Below are positions 2,622-10,921 of a stretch of DNA of 31,897 bases, piece by piece (positions within the stretch are counted from its first letter, which is position 1; each line of letters starts with the position of its first letter). Location of the stretch: positions 1 through 31,897 of the IMG/VR virus record IMGVR_UViG_3300025424_000027, one strand, 5' to 3'. The position numbers were made by a program, and so were the translations under genes. The stretch comes from a virus. The notes under the pieces are model-generated. The model saw only the letters and a list, made by a program, of their open reading frames with translations. It searched no databases and was not told where the DNA came from.

Positions 2622-3662
2622 ATGCATAATTATAGTTACGATAACGTTACTAGTCTATTAGAATCTATTGGTGCAGATACCATATATCATGGTTATAGAT
2701 TAAAATGGCTGCAAAGTAACTATCCGAACTTGTTAAACCAACTTGTATCAGTTACGTCTTTTTTGAATCCTGCAACATTAACTGAGCGTTTATATTGTTA
2801 TACCAATGATATCAAATATAGACCTAAATGTAAAATGTGTAAAAACACTGTTACTTATTCGAGAATAAAAAAGGAATATCACACATATTGTTCTCAAAGA
2901 TGTTCAATGTCGGATATGAAGACATTACTAGGAGTTGAAAATACAAGTCAATTAGAGTTAGTTAAACAAAAGAAAAAAGAATCAGCTATAACTAAATATG
3001 GTGTAGATAACCCGAGCAAGGCTCCTGAAATTAAATTAAAAATTGCAAAAATAAGATCTAAACAATGGGATGATTTTTTTGACAAATTAATAAACGATTC
3101 AAAAGGTCAGGATATTATTGAAATATCAGAAAAAGAATATAATCGTCGGGTATGGAAAATTAGTAATTACATGTATCGATTACATAGAGATAACTTAGAT
3201 CCAAATCGTACAAGGGGAGATAAATTCCATTTGGATCATAAATTCAGTATTAAAAACGGTTATATAAATTCAATTCCTGCTCATATAATAGGCGATATTA
3301 CCAATTTGGTAATTTTATCGGCATCAAAAAATACATCAAAATCCTATAGGAATTCTATTGAAATACACGAGCTTATAACTGAATATAATAAATTTTATTC
3401 TGCAAAAGTATTACCTAATATCAACGAAATTCTACACAAAAAGATTCAAGTTTCTAGTGTTAGGTACTATGAGCATGATTTTGGTATTTGTAGAACCTGT
3501 GGGAGTATAGCACATTTTAAATTTGAAAATAATCAAAAATGGTGTTGTCAACCATCTAGAAATTCATGTCTTGGAATGAAAACTAAAAATAGTACGACTC
3601 AAAAATTATCAGAAAAGAAAAAAGAAGCTACTCAGAAACGAGTAGCTTCACGTATAATTTAA
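2622..3662 (+). CDS. HNH homing endonuclease
   Basis: A 346-residue free-standing homing endonuclease that would nick or cut a specific site in related phages lacking the gene. Seen: a zinc-finger-like C70/C73/C90/C94 near the N-terminus; a KYGVDNPSK element at 125-133, a short motif also present in the 5061 endonuclease and in part in the 9263 one; an HNH core with H203-L-D205-H206, N228 and N237; and a second Cys cluster (C290, C293, C308/309, C316) near the C-terminus. AAGGAG lies eight bases before the ATG, after the structured leader. The last codons overlap the VWA gene and contain that gene's terminator on the other strand. Family assignment is firm; the target site is not known but is probably nearby. 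Confidence 0.85.
   Translation: MHNYSYDNVTSLLESIGADTIYHGYRLKWLQSNYPNLLNQLVSVTSFLNPATLTERLYCYTNDIKYRPKCKMCKNTVTYSRIKKEYHTYCSQRCSMSDMKTLLGVENTSQLELVKQKKKESAITKYGVDNPSKAPEIKLKIAKIRSKQWDDFFDKLINDSKGQDIIEISEKEYNRRVWKISNYMYRLHRDNLDPNRTRGDKFHLDHKFSIKNGYINSIPAHIIGDITNLVILSASKNTSKSYRNSIEIHELITEYNKFYSAKVLPNINEILHKKIQVSSVRYYEHDFGICRTCGSIAHFKFENNQKWCCQPSRNSCLGMKTKNSTTQKLSEKKKEATQKRVASRII
3612..3649 (-). terminator. rho-independent terminator of the VWA gene, inside the HNH gene
   Basis: On the minus strand GAAGCTACT and AGTAGCTTC (3641-3649 and 3624-3632) form a perfect 9-bp stem with an 8-base loop, followed by TTTTTTCTTTTCT. It lies just past the VWA stop at 3659 and within the last codons of the plus-strand HNH gene. 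Confidence 0.8.
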
Positions 3663-4936
3663 GCAGCCTCCACTTCCTCTACACCGACTTTTGGCTCGTA
3701 ATACGCCCAGGTTCCGAACGGAGGTTTTACACGAGTCTTAGCGCCTTCAGTGATAATCCATAAGACATCGCAATAATTCTCTGGTCCCCAACCACCGTTA
3801 GGGCCAGAAGAAAAAGGAAACCCATCAGTAAACACCACAGCCTTCTTAGGCTCGATGTTATTCTCCATCCAATAATCCCAGAACGCCATGAAGTCAGTTC
3901 CACCGCCGCCCTTTGGCTTATATGAGAGTAGATCGTCTGCATTCTCTTGCGTAAATTCCTGGTAATTATATACTTCAGTGTCGAAGCAAAGAATGCCAAT
4001 TTTATAATCATGATATGCACTCATAATTCCATGAATTTCGCTCATAAAATCTCGAGCCATGTCGTCTGAAATCGAACCAGACATATCTATAGCAATTTGA
4101 ATATCGATAGTTTCATCTTTGTCCAATACCGGAAGGAATATACCACTGTACATATGTTTACGATTTGGACGAGACCATGTAAAATCATCTACGATACATG
4201 ACTGAATGTTTTGCTGTAGTAAATCTCTCCAATTGATCTTGGGTTCAACAAGGTCATCAATGAGACGCTGTAGACCAGCTGGCATACGACCTGCCGCAGC
4301 ATTAGCAGCCTGTAGTATCTTACCCTTCATCTCCTCTTTGATCTTCTTTAGCTCGTCGCCGTCTATATCAATTGGAATACGATTCTTACCGTCTTTGTTG
4401 CCACCTTTTTTGTCATCGCCCATGTCAATATGAACGTCCAGGGTCATTTCTTTTTTGACCTTACGCTTCTCCAAGTCATCGTAAACAGCTTCTGAGCTCC
4501 AGCCTACATATTTGGCATCATAGAGTCCAACACGCTGAGCACCTTTACCGTTGTCATCTTTTATGTTATCGTCTACTACCTTCTTCATAGGCATCTTGCC
4601 AATTTTGTCAGTAACCAGTGTACCGTTAATCACGTAGTCATTGGCCATGTTCCACCAGCTGGGATCACGATGTGACCTACGTCCAAAATGGTCAAATGCC
4701 ACATGTAAGACTTCATGGCATAAAACGAATACAATCTCGTCGACATCCAGTTCACCGAAAAAATCTCTGTTATAATAAATGTTTCGCCCGTCTACTGCTG
4801 CGGTTGGACACCAACCTGCATCAGTAGCATCTACCAGTTTAAGATGCATGGTAAGGTTGCCGAAAAACGGCTGTGCAAATAGTAGTTTAATACGTGCCTG
4901 GCTGATTTTTTTGGCTACTGGATCGCGTTGTGTCAT
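3659..4936 (-). CDS. DUF2201-type putative metallopeptidase with VWA domain
   Basis: A 425-residue protein with two parts. The N-terminal region has a zinc-protease motif HEVLH (H74, E75, H78) in a CHEVLHVAFDHFGRR context. The C-terminal VWA-like domain has a MIDAS site: D284-M-S286-G-S288, T347 in a GGGGTD loop, and D371 in FTDGFP. This is the DUF2201 architecture usually encoded beside a MoxR AAA+ ATPase, and a MoxR gene is present at 7462-8667. The pair is thought to remodel or mature a partner complex; the target here is unknown. The two genes are parted by a plus-strand mobile island. A fragment of this gene's first 21 codons is duplicated at 6718-6819. The ATG at 4936 is preceded by a CGGAGA ribosome site and a sigma70-like promoter. 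Confidence 0.85.
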   Translation of the reverse strand: MTQRDPVAKKISQARIKLLFAQPFFGNLTMHLKLVDATDAGWCPTAAVDGRNIYYNRDFFGELDVDEIVFVLCHEVLHVAFDHFGRRSHRDPSWWNMANDYVINGTLVTDKIGKMPMKKVVDDNIKDDNGKGAQRVGLYDAKYVGWSSEAVYDDLEKRKVKKEMTLDVHIDMGDDKKGGNKDGKNRIPIDIDGDELKKIKEEMKGKILQAANAAAGRMPAGLQRLIDDLVEPKINWRDLLQQNIQSCIVDDFTWSRPNRKHMYSGIFLPVLDKDETIDIQIAIDMSGSISDDMARDFMSEIHGIMSAYHDYKIGILCFDTEVYNYQEFTQENADDLLSYKPKGGGGTDFMAFWDYWMENNIEPKKAVVFTDGFPFSSGPNGGWGPENYCDVLWIITEGAKTRVKPPFGTWAYYEPKVGVEEVEAA

Positions 4937-4970
4937 AGCATTCTCCGATTTAATAACAATGTTATATTAG
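4869..4970. repeat. direct repeat, copy 1 (functional VWA 5' end)
   Basis: This stretch covers the first 22 or so codons, ribosome site and -10 region of the VWA gene. It is repeated in the same orientation at 6718-6819, offset by 1848-1849 bases, with long identical blocks such as the one around TTTAATACGTGCCTG and GATTTAATAACAATGTTAT. The two copies flank the Vsr-like endonuclease gene. Confidence 0.85.
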
Positions 4971-4991
4971 CATATACCAAATAAAAATCAA
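4953..4991 (-). promoter_or_regulatory. sigma70-like promoter of the VWA gene with palindrome
   Basis: TTGATT (4986-4991), 16 bases, TAATAT (4964-4969), with TGC before the -10. The palindrome ATAACAATGTTAT (4953-4965) overlaps the predicted start and could be an operator. The -35 box is weaker than the TTGACA of the repeat copy at 6835-6840. Confidence 0.6.
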
Positions 4992-5023
4992 TTGAAAATT
5001 TGGTAAAAAATAGAAAAATACAG

Positions 5024-5050
5024 TATAAATAAACATTAACTTACACGGAG
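5024..5050 (+). promoter_or_regulatory. T4-type late promoter and ribosome site of the endonuclease gene
   Basis: A perfect TATAAATA box (5024-5031) would start transcription near 5037. ACGGAG (5045-5050) follows, ten bases before the GTG start at 5061. This leader lacks the hairpin seen before the HNH and GIY-YIG genes. Confidence 0.7.
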
Positions 5051-5060
5051 CTTTTGATCA

Positions 5061-6554
5061 GTGTTAGAAAAATTAAAACAAATAATCGCCGTTACTGATA
5101 ACAGGGTGCTCGGACAAGTTGTAAAAAGCAACAGCAATTATCCACTCTACGATTGGTTAGTAAACGAAACCAAAAATTTATCACCTTCTGCAACTGTAAA
5201 AGAACGGATAAATGCGGTGTTAACAGGGGAAACACCTGAATGCAAATATGGAAATGTTCGAATTTTTTATGCGTATGATAATGGATATAAATTTTGCAAC
5301 ACCGTAGATAAGTGTCAATGTCATAAAGAGCATTATGAAGCTAATCACATACCGCTTGATGCTGAAACAATTAAAACGATACTTGAAAAAAGAAAGGAAA
5401 CTTGGAAAGAAAAATACGGAGTTGATAATCCATCCAAAAATTGTAATATTAAAAATAAAAGAAAATTAACAATGCAGGACCGATCATATGACATGATGCG
5501 ATCAAAATTAAATGAAAAACTACAGGATATTGGATATCAAGCGGTAATTGATCGCGTAAAGGATTATGTAACTCCGGCATTTACTCGAGACGAGTATACT
5601 GGTTGTTTTAGAAAAAACTTTTATAAATGGAAGTGTAATTTTTGTGGTCAAGAGGTTTTGGACCATGTGGACTACGGTAGAATTCCCAGATGTTTAAATT
5701 GCAATCCAAAGTCTGTATCTAAAAATGAAATTGAATTAAGAGAATGGATAGGGTCACTTGGTTTGTCTGTGGAGGGAAATACAAAAGAAATATTGGGGGA
5801 CAAAGAGTTTGATATTTGGTTACCAGAAAAGAACATAGCAGTAGAATTTAATGGTATTTACTGGCACTCGTCTAAATGGAAAGATCCGAATTATCACGTT
5901 GATAAATTTATCAGGAGTCGTGATAAAGGTATAAGGTTGATACAAATTTTTGAAGATGAATGGATAAACAAGCAAGATATAATTAAATCTCGTTTAAAAT
6001 CTGTTTTAGGTATATCTGATAGAATTTATGCAAGGAATTGTTCAATTAAAACAATTAATAAGTCTGAATATAAAAGTTTTTGTATAAAATATCATCTTCA
6101 AGGGTATGCATCTGCGTCAATTGTATATGGTCTTTATCATAATGACATTTTAATAGCAGTCATGAGTTTTGGTAAGTCGAGATATACTAAAGATGGTTTT
6201 GAATTAATTAGGTATTGTTCAATATCCACCGTAATCGGCGGTGCTAGTAAATTATTCAAAAGATTTATAAAAGATCATAATCCAACACGAGTTATTAGCT
6301 ATGCTAATAGATGTTGGAGTAATGGCAAATTATATGAAGCATTGGGGTTTACCAATGTTACTAAAAACGACAGAAACACCGGCTACTGGTATTTTAAAAA
6401 CCATACAAGATATCACAGAACCTCATTCGTTAAGTCTAGATTGATAAAACTCGGGTTTGATCAATCTAAAACTGAAGAACAAATAATGTCTGACGCCGGA
6501 TACCTTAAGATTTATGATTGCGGTAATTATAAATTTAATTGGTCGCCTAAATAA
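5061..6554 (+). CDS. Vsr-like (EDxHD/PD-(D/E)XK) homing endonuclease with C-terminal accessory domain
   Basis: A 497-residue protein starting with GTG. Order of parts: an N-terminal region; KYGVDNPSK at 118-126; a zinc finger CNFC-CLNC at 192-214; then a Vsr-like nuclease core with D251 in FDIWLP, E262 in VEFNG, H269, H279 and D281, followed by GIRLIQIFEDEW at 290-301. This pattern fits the EDxHD class of homing endonucleases related to very-short-patch repair nucleases (I-Bth0305I type). Residues 335-460 form a second domain (VMSFGKSRY, SYANRCWSNGKLYEALGF, GYWYF) resembling the acetyltransferase-like modules found after such nucleases in phages; its role is not established. It shares this architecture with the gene at 9263-10921. 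It lies between direct repeats of the VWA 5' end, opposite to the surrounding operon. Confidence 0.8.
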   Translation: MLEKLKQIIAVTDNRVLGQVVKSNSNYPLYDWLVNETKNLSPSATVKERINAVLTGETPECKYGNVRIFYAYDNGYKFCNTVDKCQCHKEHYEANHIPLDAETIKTILEKRKETWKEKYGVDNPSKNCNIKNKRKLTMQDRSYDMMRSKLNEKLQDIGYQAVIDRVKDYVTPAFTRDEYTGCFRKNFYKWKCNFCGQEVLDHVDYGRIPRCLNCNPKSVSKNEIELREWIGSLGLSVEGNTKEILGDKEFDIWLPEKNIAVEFNGIYWHSSKWKDPNYHVDKFIRSRDKGIRLIQIFEDEWINKQDIIKSRLKSVLGISDRIYARNCSIKTINKSEYKSFCIKYHLQGYASASIVYGLYHNDILIAVMSFGKSRYTKDGFELIRYCSISTVIGGASKLFKRFIKDHNPTRVISYANRCWSNGKLYEALGFTNVTKNDRNTGYWYFKNHTRYHRTSFVKSRLIKLGFDQSKTEEQIMSDAGYLKIYDCGNYKFNWSPK

Positions 6555-6568
6555 ATTTGGATTTTAAA

Positions 6569-6712
6569 ATGGGCAACAATAAAGAATATAATTTAGAAAA
6601 TCGATTAAAAATTATTGAAAAAATAGAACAAATGATTCGGGAGTCTAAAGCTAATCAACAAAAAATTAAAAAGATTATGAAATCTTTGAAAAATCTAAAT
6701 AAAAATCAATAA
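6569..6712 (+). CDS. small Lys-rich helical protein, 47 aa
   Basis: A short frame right after the endonuclease gene: MGNNKEYN, then a highly charged predicted coiled coil (RLKIIEKIEQMIRESK, then lysine-rich heptads). Fourteen bases separate it from the upstream stop. The ribosome site is poor (TTGGA), so it may depend on coupling or not be translated. If real it is cargo of the mobile island. No family recognised. Confidence 0.4.
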   Translation: MGNNKEYNLENRLKIIEKIEQMIRESKANQQKIKKIMKSLKNLNKNQ

Positions 6713-6717
6713 AATAA

Positions 6718-6819
6718 GGCGGGCAAACAACAATTTAATACGTGCCTGACTGATTTTTTTGGCTACTAGATCGCGTTGTGTCGGTTATTATATACGATTT
6801 AATAACAATGTTATGATAG
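6718..6819 (-). pseudogene. direct repeat, copy 2: start-less fragment of the VWA gene
   Basis: Read on the minus strand this copy still encodes TQRDLVAKKISQARI and the next residues in frame, with one amino-acid change (Pro to Leu) against the intact gene. The start ATG is replaced by CCG and the ribosome site is gone. It ends after about 21 codons beside the small island gene. It is followed upstream by an intact-looking promoter. It is most simply the relic of the original VWA 5' end or of an imported copy left when the endonuclease element entered. Confidence 0.8.
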
Positions 6820-6840
6820 CAGAATTAAGGAGAGTGTCAA
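6802..6840 (-). promoter_or_regulatory. sigma70-like promoter beside the VWA fragment
   Basis: TTGACA (6835-6840), 16 bases, TATCAT (6813-6818), with TGC before the -10, then the palindrome at 6802-6814. It is the best match to the early consensus around the VWA locus and may be its ancestral promoter. It now reads antisense through the endonuclease gene. Confidence 0.7.
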
Positions 6841-6850
6841 CTATTTTGTT

Positions 6851-6875
6851 TATAAATATTATAACAGAATTGGAG
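6851..6875 (+). promoter_or_regulatory. T4-type late promoter and ribosome site
   Basis: A perfect TATAAATA (6851-6858), expected start near 6864, then TGGAG (6871-6875) six bases before the ATG at 6882. It drives the two small genes that follow. Confidence 0.65.
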
Positions 6876-6881
6876 ATATCG

Positions 6882-7076
6882 ATGGAAAAACTACCAATAA
6901 TTAAATCGCCTACTAAACCCGGACCGGGGTATGTTGAAGTAACGCCAGAATTAATCCAGCAATTAGTGGATTCAAAACGTAGAATCGTCGAACTACGGAA
7001 AAAATTTGAACAGTTTAAAGAAGAAATGATTGCAGAAAATTTGAAAAATTTAGAGAATAATCATGAGAGCATATGA
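6882..7076 (+). CDS. hypothetical protein, 64 aa
   Basis: The frame is open further upstream, but the ATG at 6882 has the ribosome site (GGAG) and late promoter, so it is the likely start. An N-terminal Pro-rich stretch (LPIIKSPTKPGPGYVEVTPE) leads into one long charged helix (SKRRIVELRKKFEQFKEEM), probably a coiled coil. Its end overlaps the next gene. Likely cargo or displaced phage gene on the plus-strand island; no known family. Confidence 0.65.
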   Translation: MEKLPIIKSPTKPGPGYVEVTPELIQQLVDSKRRIVELRKKFEQFKEEMIAENLKNLENNHESI

Positions 7077-7365
7077 GTGGACACAGGAAGATTTAACTTG
7101 GTTAGAACTTATAGGCGAACCTTTAGATATAAATGACGATTACAACACAATTGTCGAAGTTATAAACTTCTTAATAAAACAAAAGTCGGCCCATAGAATT
7201 AAACAAATGTTACCAAATATCGAAGAATTTGAAGCAAAATTATATGAAAGAACACAGGTTGTTTTTGTAGAGCCAACAGACCCCGATGCAGTTAAATTTA
7301 TAGATGATGCAAAGAATATGTTAGAACATATAAAGTCGCTGAAAAATCAATTAATAAACATTTAA
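7063..7365 (+). CDS. hypothetical protein, 100 aa
   Basis: Soluble, acidic N-terminal half (WTQEDLTWLELIGEPLDINDDY) and helical C-terminal half ending in KNMLEHIKSLKNQLINI. It overlaps the preceding gene by 14 bases, so both are made from one message. It is convergent with the MoxR gene. No family recognised. Confidence 0.65.
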   Translation: MRAYEWTQEDLTWLELIGEPLDINDDYNTIVEVINFLIKQKSAHRIKQMLPNIEEFEAKLYERTQVVFVEPTDPDAVKFIDDAKNMLEHIKSLKNQLINI

Positions 7366-7404
7366 AATTGATCGTTAGTATATAAAGATCATATGGATAG
7401 GTGT

Positions 7405-7437
7405 AAACACAAGAAAGCGGACAATTTCTCGTCCGCT
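7405..7437 (-). terminator. hairpin terminator downstream of the MoxR gene
   Basis: AGCGGAC (7416-7422) and GTCCGCT (7431-7437) form a 7-bp GC-rich stem with an 8-base loop. On the minus strand it is followed by TTTCTTGTGTTT, a weak T-run, so it best serves the MoxR transcript. On the plus strand the following bases (CCCTAATTGTTTT) fit less well, though it may act both ways. Confidence 0.6.
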
Positions 7438-7461
7438 CCCTAATTGTTTTATATTACTTAT

Positions 7462-8667
7462 TTACGGTACATTTGGGATCAAGTCAGAATACCGATTGCA
7501 GAAGGTCGTCCAACTTTTAAGTTTTGGAGCCATAATAGGTAGTTTATATGTACCAAGAATTGCCTTAGCACCCATCACGGCTAATTCGTCTTCAAAATTT
7601 GCCATCACAAATTCAAAGAATGTATCCACTTGCTTATGGAACTCGTCCATCGGTTTTGAGTCGCCTGCACGTTTGGCTTGTTCAGCACTCTTAGCACTAT
7701 CCGCCAAGTAGTATGTAAGAGCAGTAGTCAATGCGTACATGATGTCAATCTGCTTTACATTCAACTTGGTAACCTTGCCAGTTAGCACATCCTTAGCATG
7801 TGGCAAGTTAGCAGCCTGCTGACGATAAGTCATAAATTTAATACCAGCACCCTCGCCTACAGTACCTTTGATAAGATCTGCAAGCACATCGCTTGGCAGT
7901 GTGGTATCAATTACATTACCGTCCTCATCAGTCTCCTGGATCAGTTCGCTAGCAAAGTACCATGAACGAGGTGTAGCAAACGCCATGCTCTCTGAGCCAG
8001 GATTAAACACGTTGAGATCATTTGGCTGGAAGCTCAAGTAACCAACAACGTCCTTATGGATTCTGTTAATCAGTGCCCACTCTTTCCAGTCATCAAAGTC
8101 TACTGCAAGAGTAAGATGTGTAAAGCGATTGGCCAGTGGCATTGGCATGTTATATGCAACACCCTTGTCCTTAACGCGGTTACCAGCAGCCACAATTACC
8201 ACGTTCTCTGGCAGCTGATACTGACCAATACGACGATTAAGAATGATTTGGTATGTAGCAACTTGGACGCTGGGTGGTGCAGCACTCATCTCATCAAAGA
8301 AAACCAATGCATTGCTATTTGGATCCGTTGGAAGATCACTTGGATTGCTCCATGTAAACACTTTTTCTGTAAGTGGAACACCTTTTTCGTCCTTAACGAC
8401 GTTGCCTTTAGCATCGGTGATTTTGATATCGATAAGATGTGGGATACCGCGGATATCTGTTGGTTCCATGAGTGGAAGTCGGATGTCAATTAATGGACGA
8501 CCCTGAGTCTTTGCAACTTCTGCAACAATGTCGGATTTACCAATACCCGGTGCACCCCAAATGAATAATGGACGCTTACGCTTTAATGAATGTTGAATAG
8601 CAAGTTTTAGCTTGCTTGGAGTGGTTGTGGAATGTTCAATAATTTTTTGCTGTTTGGCTGTGCTCAT
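7462..8667 (-). CDS. MoxR-family AAA+ ATPase
   Basis: A 401-residue ATPase. Seen: Walker A GAPGIGKS (38-45), Walker B LVFFDE with D125 and E126, and a sensor Asn in AAGNR (N163). Family knowledge: MoxR ATPases act as chaperone-like remodelers with VWA-domain partners. The DUF2201/VWA protein at 3659-4936 is the obvious partner and lies in the same direction, 2.5 kb downstream, beyond a plus-strand mobile island. GAGGTAA before the ATG is a good ribosome site, and a TTGACA promoter lies just upstream. It probably headed a two-gene operon before the insertion. The complex may act on a phage or host assembly; the substrate is unknown. Confidence 0.9.
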   Translation of the reverse strand: MSTAKQQKIIEHSTTTPSKLKLAIQHSLKRKRPLFIWGAPGIGKSDIVAEVAKTQGRPLIDIRLPLMEPTDIRGIPHLIDIKITDAKGNVVKDEKGVPLTEKVFTWSNPSDLPTDPNSNALVFFDEMSAAPPSVQVATYQIILNRRIGQYQLPENVVIVAAGNRVKDKGVAYNMPMPLANRFTHLTLAVDFDDWKEWALINRIHKDVVGYLSFQPNDLNVFNPGSESMAFATPRSWYFASELIQETDEDGNVIDTTLPSDVLADLIKGTVGEGAGIKFMTYRQQAANLPHAKDVLTGKVTKLNVKQIDIMYALTTALTYYLADSAKSAEQAKRAGDSKPMDEFHKQVDTFFEFVMANFEDELAVMGAKAILGTYKLPIMAPKLKSWTTFCNRYSDLIPNVP

Positions 8668-9262: not shown

Positions 9263-10921
9263 ATGAATAATCTCATCAATGAAGTAACTGCGGCCATATC
9301 GAATGCTAAATCTTATGTAAAGTATAGAAAAATAATATCAAGCAATTGGCCATTTCTTGACAAACAATTATCAACTGGTCCTTACAACAGATATGCGGAA
9401 AATTTGTATCTATTTCTGAATGGTTTATCTGAGAGACCTAGATGTGCTAATTCTCATTGTAACATAGAGTTAAAATATATTGATCGAACCGAAGGATACA
9501 GAAAATTTTGTTCAACCAAGTGTTCAGCGAGTTCAGATGAAGTTAAAAATCAACATAACATAGCAAATGCCAATCGATCAGACCAGGATAAGCAAGCAAT
9601 AGTTGATAAGAGACACCAAACTATGATCAATCGACATGGGTTCCCGCATGCATTGCAATGTCCTGAATTTAAAGACAAGTATAATTTAAAGATACAGGAT
9701 GTAGATTGGAAATCTGTAGCAGATAAACGTACAAAGACTTATTTAGACAAATATGGTGTTGATAATATTTGGAATTTACCAAGTTTTAGAGAGAAGATTA
9801 AACAAACAAATTTAGAAAAATATGGAGTAGAATGGGTACAACAAAATCACGATGTTGTATCAAAACGCACAAGCACACGCAACAAAGTATTTTTTGAAAA
9901 TTTATTCAGCAGGGTAACATCAGCAACTCCGTTGTTCACAGTAGATGACTACGATAAAGTAGATCAAAAATATCCGTGGGTTTGCAATAGTTGTTTGACA
10001 ACATTTATAGACCATATAGATGATGGCACTGATCCTATTTGCCCAAAATGTTTTCCTGGTGGAAAATTGTCATCACTTGGGGAGAAACAACTTGTAAATT
10101 TCATTTACAGTTTAGGAATAACCAATGTTTTGCAAAATGTCAGATATATTATTCCGCCAAAAGAAATTGATATATGGTTACCGGATTACAACTTGGGTAT
10201 AGAATTTAATGGATTATACTGGCATACTGAAAAACGATGTAAAACAAAATTTTCTCATTTTAATAAATGGAAAACGTGTAATGATCAGGGGATACGACTT
10301 ATACAGATATTTTCTGATGAATGGCAATTTAAACAAAATATTGTAAAGAATAGATTAAAACATTTTCTAAATAAATCAGAAAAAACGTGTAATGCCAGAC
10401 AATGTATAATACAGTCAATATCTACAAAAGATTATAATCAATTTATGAATAATATACATATACAAGGGTCTTGTGTATCTTCTATCAGATATGGCGCATT
10501 TTATAATAATAAATTAGTAGCAGCAATGAGTTTTGGTAAAAATAGAGCTATACATAAATGTCAAGGCTGGGAATTATTAAGATTTGCATCATTAGGCAAT
10601 ATACCCGGTATTGCAGGAAAAATTTTCAAAAAATTTATCAACGAGTATAATCCAGATTTTATATTCAGTTATTGCGATTTAAGATGGGGTACTGGAAAAG
10701 TTTATGAATCGATTGGGATGACACTTGATTCTATTACACCACCAGGTTATTGGTATAGTAAAGATTTTGTAACAAGATTACATAGATTCAAGTTTACAAA
10801 ACAAAAATTAATCGAACAGGGCTTTGATAGTGATTTAACAGAATCTCAAATAACTGAACAGCTAGGTTATCATAAAATTTGGGATGTTGGTCACAAAAAA
10901 TTTGTATGGCATAAAATTTGA
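9263..10921 (+). CDS. Vsr-like (EDxHD) homing endonuclease, second paralogue
   Basis: A 552-residue relative of the 5061 endonuclease. An N-terminal zinc-finger-like C61/C66/C83/C87 is followed by repeats of the KYGV type (INRHGFPHA, DKYGVDNIW, EKYGVEWVQ), thought to help DNA recognition. A CNSC-CPKC finger (241-263) precedes the nuclease core with D303 in IDIWLP, E314 in IEFNG, H321 and H332, then GIRLIQIFSDEW. The C-terminal domain (AAMSFGKNRA, FSYCDLRWGTGKVYESIGM, GYWYS) matches the 5061 protein. It sits between two minus-strand genes of unknown function and ends one base before the next gene's stop. Only the putative late box precedes it. Confidence 0.8.
   Translation: MNNLINEVTAAISNAKSYVKYRKIISSNWPFLDKQLSTGPYNRYAENLYLFLNGLSERPRCANSHCNIELKYIDRTEGYRKFCSTKCSASSDEVKNQHNIANANRSDQDKQAIVDKRHQTMINRHGFPHALQCPEFKDKYNLKIQDVDWKSVADKRTKTYLDKYGVDNIWNLPSFREKIKQTNLEKYGVEWVQQNHDVVSKRTSTRNKVFFENLFSRVTSATPLFTVDDYDKVDQKYPWVCNSCLTTFIDHIDDGTDPICPKCFPGGKLSSLGEKQLVNFIYSLGITNVLQNVRYIIPPKEIDIWLPDYNLGIEFNGLYWHTEKRCKTKFSHFNKWKTCNDQGIRLIQIFSDEWQFKQNIVKNRLKHFLNKSEKTCNARQCIIQSISTKDYNQFMNNIHIQGSCVSSIRYGAFYNNKLVAAMSFGKNRAIHKCQGWELLRFASLGNIPGIAGKIFKKFINEYNPDFIFSYCDLRWGTGKVYESIGMTLDSITPPGYWYSKDFVTRLHRFKFTKQKLIEQGFDSDLTESQITEQLGYHKIWDVGHKKFVWHKI

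Follow-up and report, generated by a model that had tools for sequence, protein, structure and literature searches.

A displaced gene start beside a phage endonuclease gene as the probable scar of one-sided homing

The divided MoxR-VWA operon and its direct repeat

The DNA considered here, called the window, is a 31,897-nt stretch of viral sequence (IMG/VR record IMGVR_UViG_3300025424_000027), and coordinates refer to it unless another contig is named. Two of its minus-strand genes, encoding a MoxR-type AAA+ ATPase and a VWA/DUF2201 metallopeptidase-like protein, are held apart by an island that carries a predicted homing endonuclease gene (HEG), and the 5' end of the VWA gene is found on both sides of this island. 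The direct repeat is probably the scar of a one-sided endonuclease homing event. The locus contains the following features, including several short open reading frames (ORFs).

3659..4936, minus strand: VWA/DUF2201 metallopeptidase-like gene, functional copy, 425 amino acids, downstream of the proximal repeat copy
4867..4992, minus strand: proximal repeat copy, with promoter, leader, start codon and first VWA codons
5061..6554, plus strand: predicted EDxHD/Vsr-like free-standing homing endonuclease gene, 497 amino acids, GTG start
6569..6712, plus strand: 47-residue ORF, a presumed hitchhiker, whose 3' end abuts the putative non-homologous junction
6713..6724: putative illegitimate junction between the end of the imported segment and the VWA relic at about codons 22-26, placed where homology to the proximal copy fades
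6719..6784, minus strand: relic of VWA codons 1-22, with CCG for ATG, presumably the recipient allele
6785..6843, minus strand: relic leader and intact-looking original VWA promoter
6882..7076, plus strand: 64-residue ORF, with a relative in opposite orientation in the MoxR-VWA gap of contig L018
7063..7365, plus strand: 100-residue ORF, with a relative in opposite orientation in the same L018 gap
7412..7441, minus strand: MoxR transcription terminator, a 13-pair stem with a T-rich tail
7462..8667, minus strand: MoxR-type AAA+ ATPase gene, 401 amino acids, Pfam AAA/AAA_5 above cut-off

An earlier reading of this DNA, made from the sequence only, had described a repeat of the VWA 5' end around the endonuclease island, and the repeat is borne out by two blocks that match in register: 4875-4934 with 6723-6782 (90% identity) and 4946-4972 with 6795-6821 (93%). 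Joined, they form a 100-nt match of 84% identity with an E value of about 1e-23. The limits given by that reading, 4869-4970 and 6718-6819, need to be widened, for when the copies are aligned with their relatives the homology continues beyond 4970 to the -35 box, at about 4992 and 6843. The duplicated unit (4867-4992 and 6719-6843) consists of the VWA promoter, the leader and the first 22 or so codons. The distal copy retains codons 2-22 in frame with CCG in place of ATG, much as had been noted, and differs by P6L and, at the edge of the repeat, Q22R; the Shine-Dalgarno and start region has also been replaced. Over codons 2-21, the two copies are separated by six synonymous changes and one non-synonymous change, and a test for synonymous excess, which has few sites to draw on, gives P of about 0.008-0.05 when all 22 codons are counted. 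One pair of neighboring leucine codons, both changed from CTA to TTG, may represent a single event.

Two smaller repeats were seen alongside. At 6782-6805, where the distal copy lost its start codon, there is an inverted repeat (GTTATTA...TAATAAC) that could reflect a template-switch mutation. A 14-bp identical direct repeat, AAATAAAAATCAAT, brackets the endonuclease island at 4979-4992 and 6697-6710, its copies overlapping the proximal -35 box and the end of the 47-residue ORF; shuffled sequences give it P of about 0.007, for a feature spotted post hoc.

The repeat cannot be put down to assembly, a possibility that the earlier reading had raised against itself. The two copies are not identical, and the same structure is present in L001, a separate, non-identical IMG/VR contig that is 99.82% identical to the window with 23 single-nucleotide polymorphisms over 12.9 kb. 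Most of these polymorphisms (17 of 23) cluster in or near the VWA gene at 4319-4589, likely a recent gene-conversion tract. A transposon target-site duplication is likewise rejected on the size of the repeat, about 125 bp, on its 84% identity over 100 nt, and on the lack of any transposase gene between the copies.

Each copy holds a complete VWA promoter, leader and gene start. The proximal promoter reads TTGATT (4991-4986), 16 nt, TAATAT (4969-4964), and the distal one TTGACA (6840-6835), 16 nt, TATCAT (6818-6813), with a TG element. The distal promoter had been called the stronger of the two, and it is indeed the top sigma-70 match (11/12) on the minus strand between 3500 and 9400, the proximal one being weaker. 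The two are in register with each other and with the VWA promoters of L002, L003, L015 and L018; their -35 and -10 positions are kept while their spacers are unrelated. The suggestion that a promoter had been rebuilt beside the functional copy finds no support, since the proximal promoter is a homologous VWA promoter in register, and a different endonuclease gene, in L003, also brought its own VWA promoter. The MoxR terminator sits upstream of the distal promoter, and no minus-strand terminator-like site was found between that promoter and VWA. The motif TATAAATA, which resembles a T4 late promoter, occurs at 5024, 37 bp ahead of the endonuclease gene, and at 6851, 31 bp ahead of the 64-residue ORF; as a signal it was rejected, with six occurrences against 5.5 expected by chance.

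The endonuclease and the MoxR-VWA gap in relatives

The product of 5061-6554 is predicted to be an EDxHD/Vsr-like homing endonuclease. Residues 256-313 match PDB 3r3p, a mobile intron protein that is presumably I-Bth0305I (E=6e-4), and there is a Pfam Vsr match (9e-4) below the cut-off. Residues E249, D251, E262 and H269, which we take to be those of the published EDxHD motif, are invariant in 30 of 30 aligned relatives, and free-standing relatives are annotated as Hef or EDxHD in Klebsiella and Campylobacter phages. The nearest relatives, at 49-50% amino-acid identity, come from L052 and from 11 records of PA5oct-type Pseudomonas phages, and the enzyme of the window groups with those of L052 and PA5oct in a single clade (support 100/98). 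In L052 and PA5oct the endonuclease gene also lies directly upstream of VWA (the context was examined in PA5oct itself), and the VWA proteins of these distant phages are only about 40% identical. This recurrence of one endonuclease clade beside VWA in distant phages argues that the subfamily is tied to the VWA start, an association that would fit a homing enzyme with its target there.

The VWA gene, whose product matches Pfam DUF2201_N (6e-46) and DUF2201 (1e-16), was found at 48 loci across viral contigs. MoxR and VWA could both be seen at 45 loci. At 39 of these they are neighbors, separated by a terminator and promoter, in agreement with the earlier view that the two normally adjoin. The other six carry an insert, and five different inserts are represented. 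That of L001 is the insert of the window; L002 has a glycosyltransferase-like gene; L003 (= L047) and L045 have NUMOD3/GIY-YIG-type endonuclease genes; and the L018 gap (4566-7885) holds an endonuclease gene of that same type, relatives of the 64- and 100-residue ORFs, and an Eco57I-like N6-methylase gene. A search for relic VWA starts in the other inserted gaps (L002, L003, L018, L045, L052 and PA5oct) found none.

A comparison of L003 with L048 shows how such inserts can arrive. These near-identical phage strains share 99.9% identity until the final codons of MoxR and 97.8% once VWA begins; between these points L003 (6980-8100) has the GIY-YIG-type endonuclease gene with its own VWA promoter, L048 (7880-8100) is empty, and the 3' end of MoxR has been exchanged too. 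The difference is a recent two-sided swap at the gap, and gap inserts can therefore arrive with a replacement promoter by two-sided exchange.

In the window, MoxR and VWA do lie on the minus strand at either side of the island, with plus-strand genes only between the repeat copies, as had been described; the 64- and 100-residue plus-strand ORFs that lie in the interval from the distal copy to MoxR were missing from that description. No phage relative of the 47-residue ORF was found. For the 100-residue ORF there was no phage match, and a direct scan of viral contigs gave no locus except L001. Two further endonuclease-like genes have DUF7487 motifs and border the operon; one follows VWA (2622-3662) and the other precedes a 134-amino-acid gene (9263-10921), which gives three endonuclease genes within about 8.3 kb. 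Relatives of the 9263-10921 gene occupy the same place in L016 and L038, and L038 has another after VWA.

One-sided homing and its rivals

In the favored model, the endonuclease, carried by a related phage in the same cell, would cut the recipient VWA gene near codons 22-26. The end on the VWA side would then be repaired by homologous recombination with the donor, which would bring in the endonuclease gene and the 47-residue ORF along with the 5' end and promoter of the donor VWA gene. On the MoxR side, where the donor would offer nothing to match, the other end would be joined to the end of the copied segment without homology. The recipient promoter and first 22 VWA codons would thus be stranded past the insert, losing the start codon and persisting as a relic, so that the proximal copy would be the donor allele and the distal copy the recipient allele. 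The relic promoter may still fire through the insert into VWA, antisense to the endonuclease gene. The cut position, the donor and recipient assignment, the joining step and the promoter activity are inferred. An intact VWA gene adjoins the endonuclease gene on the homologous side, and the relic of codons 1-22 with its promoter abuts the end of the 47-residue ORF on the non-homologous side. A comparison for microhomology at the junction showed only a few common bases (GGC..GCAAA).

The differences between the copies suggest that two alleles diverged while both were coding and were joined afterwards. This is favored over a decaying target duplication because the differences are mostly synonymous; a decaying copy that lacks a start codon would show the reverse bias. 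The earlier reading had left open whether a target was duplicated or two related alleles were joined. The second option is the one favored, with six of seven changes synonymous and a mosaic counterpart in L019, and target-site duplication is disfavored by the same pattern and by a length of more than 100 bp.

That counterpart, an independent case, lies at L019 5832-7571, with the same arrangement in L020, where an endonuclease gene stands between a MazG-like gene and a second MazG 3' end. The features, in L019/L020 coordinates, are as follows.

5832-6242: intact MazG-like gene
6298-7422: endonuclease gene
7443-7571: displaced MazG 3' end, in frame to the stop codon

The first 94 codons of the intact L019 gene are 76-77% identical in nucleotide sequence to L022, L044 and L028, and the displaced fragment is 77-79% identical to these same contigs. 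The last part of the intact gene is instead 86% identical to L035-type phages, to which the 5' part is only 61% identical. The intact gene is thus a chimera with an imported 3' end, and the native 3' end has been left on the far side of the endonuclease gene. In L027 and L134/L135 a member of this endonuclease family directly follows MazG with no relic, and the MazG C-termini there resemble the imported type. By analogy, the L019 case supplies a polarity that the window alone cannot.

Several observations weigh against one-sided homing in the window. Neither a donor allele nor an endonuclease-free allele with this leader was found, and TAACATTGTTATTAAATCG occurs solely in L001; the polarity in the window therefore rests on analogy. 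Looking for an endonuclease-free allele that has the distal leader led only to L001, and a degenerate search with the VWA-start pattern revealed no new close allele. The synonymous test, as noted, has few sites, and the adjacent CTA-to-TTG pair may count only once. Nor does the break coincide with the best-conserved part of VWA, as was hypothesized; codons 35-55 and those at about 90-100 are more conserved. The model also leaves orientation unexplained, since the endonuclease gene runs with VWA in L052 and PA5oct and against it in the window. Finally, when 64 HEG ORFs were examined together with both of their flanks, the scar appeared as just two events, and additional HEG scans contributed few loci and no further scar.

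The simplest rival is an ordinary duplication of the VWA 5' end, by slippage, unequal recombination or HEG-provoked segmental amplification, with the HEG between the copies and later decay of the distal one. SegB-driven segmental amplification is known in T6 (PMC13096335), the leader common to both copies is found elsewhere in the collection only in L001, and a hand comparison with L002 as outgroup assigns most of the changes to the distal copy, as would be the case for a sequence in decay. This origin is nonetheless unlikely, given that the changes are mostly synonymous despite the missing start codon, that the two promoters, like those of different alleles, agree in their -35 and -10 positions and have unrelated spacers, and that L019 is a mosaic rather than a duplication. 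Alternatively, two successive two-sided homings could each have brought a VWA promoter and 5' end, the earlier with the 64- and 100-residue ORFs and the distal copy, the later with the HEG and the proximal copy. A VWA promoter and start do follow each plus-strand island, gap inserts do carry their own promoter (L003), and relatives of the 64- and 100-residue ORFs occupy the L018 gap. However, a second homing would normally replace the earlier VWA 5' end, and a one-sided step would still be required to leave a relic, which makes this sequence of events very improbable.

The distal copy might also be kept for its function, its strong promoter transcribing VWA through the HEG and the antisense RNA silencing the HEG. 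HEG insertion is known to disturb neighboring promoters (PMC2988022), and the distal promoter is the best minus-strand match, has the MoxR terminator upstream and no terminator-like site before VWA, and is paired with a weaker proximal promoter. Loss of the start codon and ribosome site speaks against such retention, as does a record of only two near-identical haplotypes, and it seems quite unlikely. Selection of this kind would in any case account for the persistence of the copy rather than its origin, and is compatible with one-sided homing.

Relation to known mobile endonuclease genes

In phage T4, homology on one side of a break leads to illegitimate double-strand-break repair (reviewed in PMC2988022). 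The proposed event resembles this one-sided homing in having homology on one side of the break and a non-homologous join on the other; the T4 case came from laboratory crosses with intron constructs, whereas the window would be a natural scar, with a free-standing EDxHD-type gene and a relic promoter and gene start. Fungal mitochondria offer a second precedent, with endonuclease ORFs that substitute a new C-terminus in a gene and displace the native one, as in atp6 of Allomyces macrogynus and atp6, atp9, cox2 and nad3 of Glomus (PMC3630166). There too an endonuclease gene imports a foreign end of its target gene and the native end is pushed beyond it, and the L019 MazG locus is the direct counterpart. 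The window differs in being from a phage, in duplicating a 5' end and promoter rather than a 3' end, and in having an EDxHD enzyme rather than a LAGLIDADG or GIY-YIG one. To a known phenomenon it adds a form in which the 5' end and its promoter are duplicated and the enzyme is of the EDxHD type.

Among EDxHD (Vsr-like) enzymes, the window gene shares nuclease-domain similarity with PDB 3r3p and the phage Hef genes; unlike the intronic 3r3p gene it is free-standing, and the sub-clade to which it belongs is tied to the MoxR-VWA gap. Nuclease genes have also been described at exchange boundaries, in HEG hot spots (PMC10448857). The window resembles these in having an endonuclease gene at an allele-exchange border together with passenger genes, and differs in preserving one exchange border as a relic of the recipient allele. 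No report of gene-end relics in phages was found in searches of an open-access library. Repeats around Hef58-60 and Hef73-74 of Campylobacter phage NCTC12673 (L127) were set aside, as they mostly involve the Hef genes themselves. In the same phage, a 33-bp direct repeat of 94% identity with promoter-like sequence (43602-43634 and 45258-45290) brackets Hef53, next to gp32, and may represent a promoter that was copied when the gene inserted.

The mirror-image scar in a related phage suggests a repeatable way for such genes to move. The earlier view that the duplication is a clue to how this endonuclease class moves is therefore upheld in outline, in that the clade is tied to the site and the scar fits one-sided homing. 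More tentatively, and with the balance of probability still somewhat against it, free-standing phage HEGs may regularly enter new genomes one-sidedly, the donor end, together with its promoter or terminus, replacing the end of the target gene and the recipient end being stranded as a relic, such that relics would map cleavage sites and the direction of past homing purely from sequence. Homing is usually inferred from crosses; the two natural scars in one phage group would record the recombined end and the rough position of the cut, and also that the target gene stays functional through a promoter or terminus brought in with the imported segment. The sequence signature to seek in other phages would be a simple one, a relic of a gene end on the far side of an endonuclease gene, and it may make the cleavage sites of uncharacterized EDxHD enzymes predictable.

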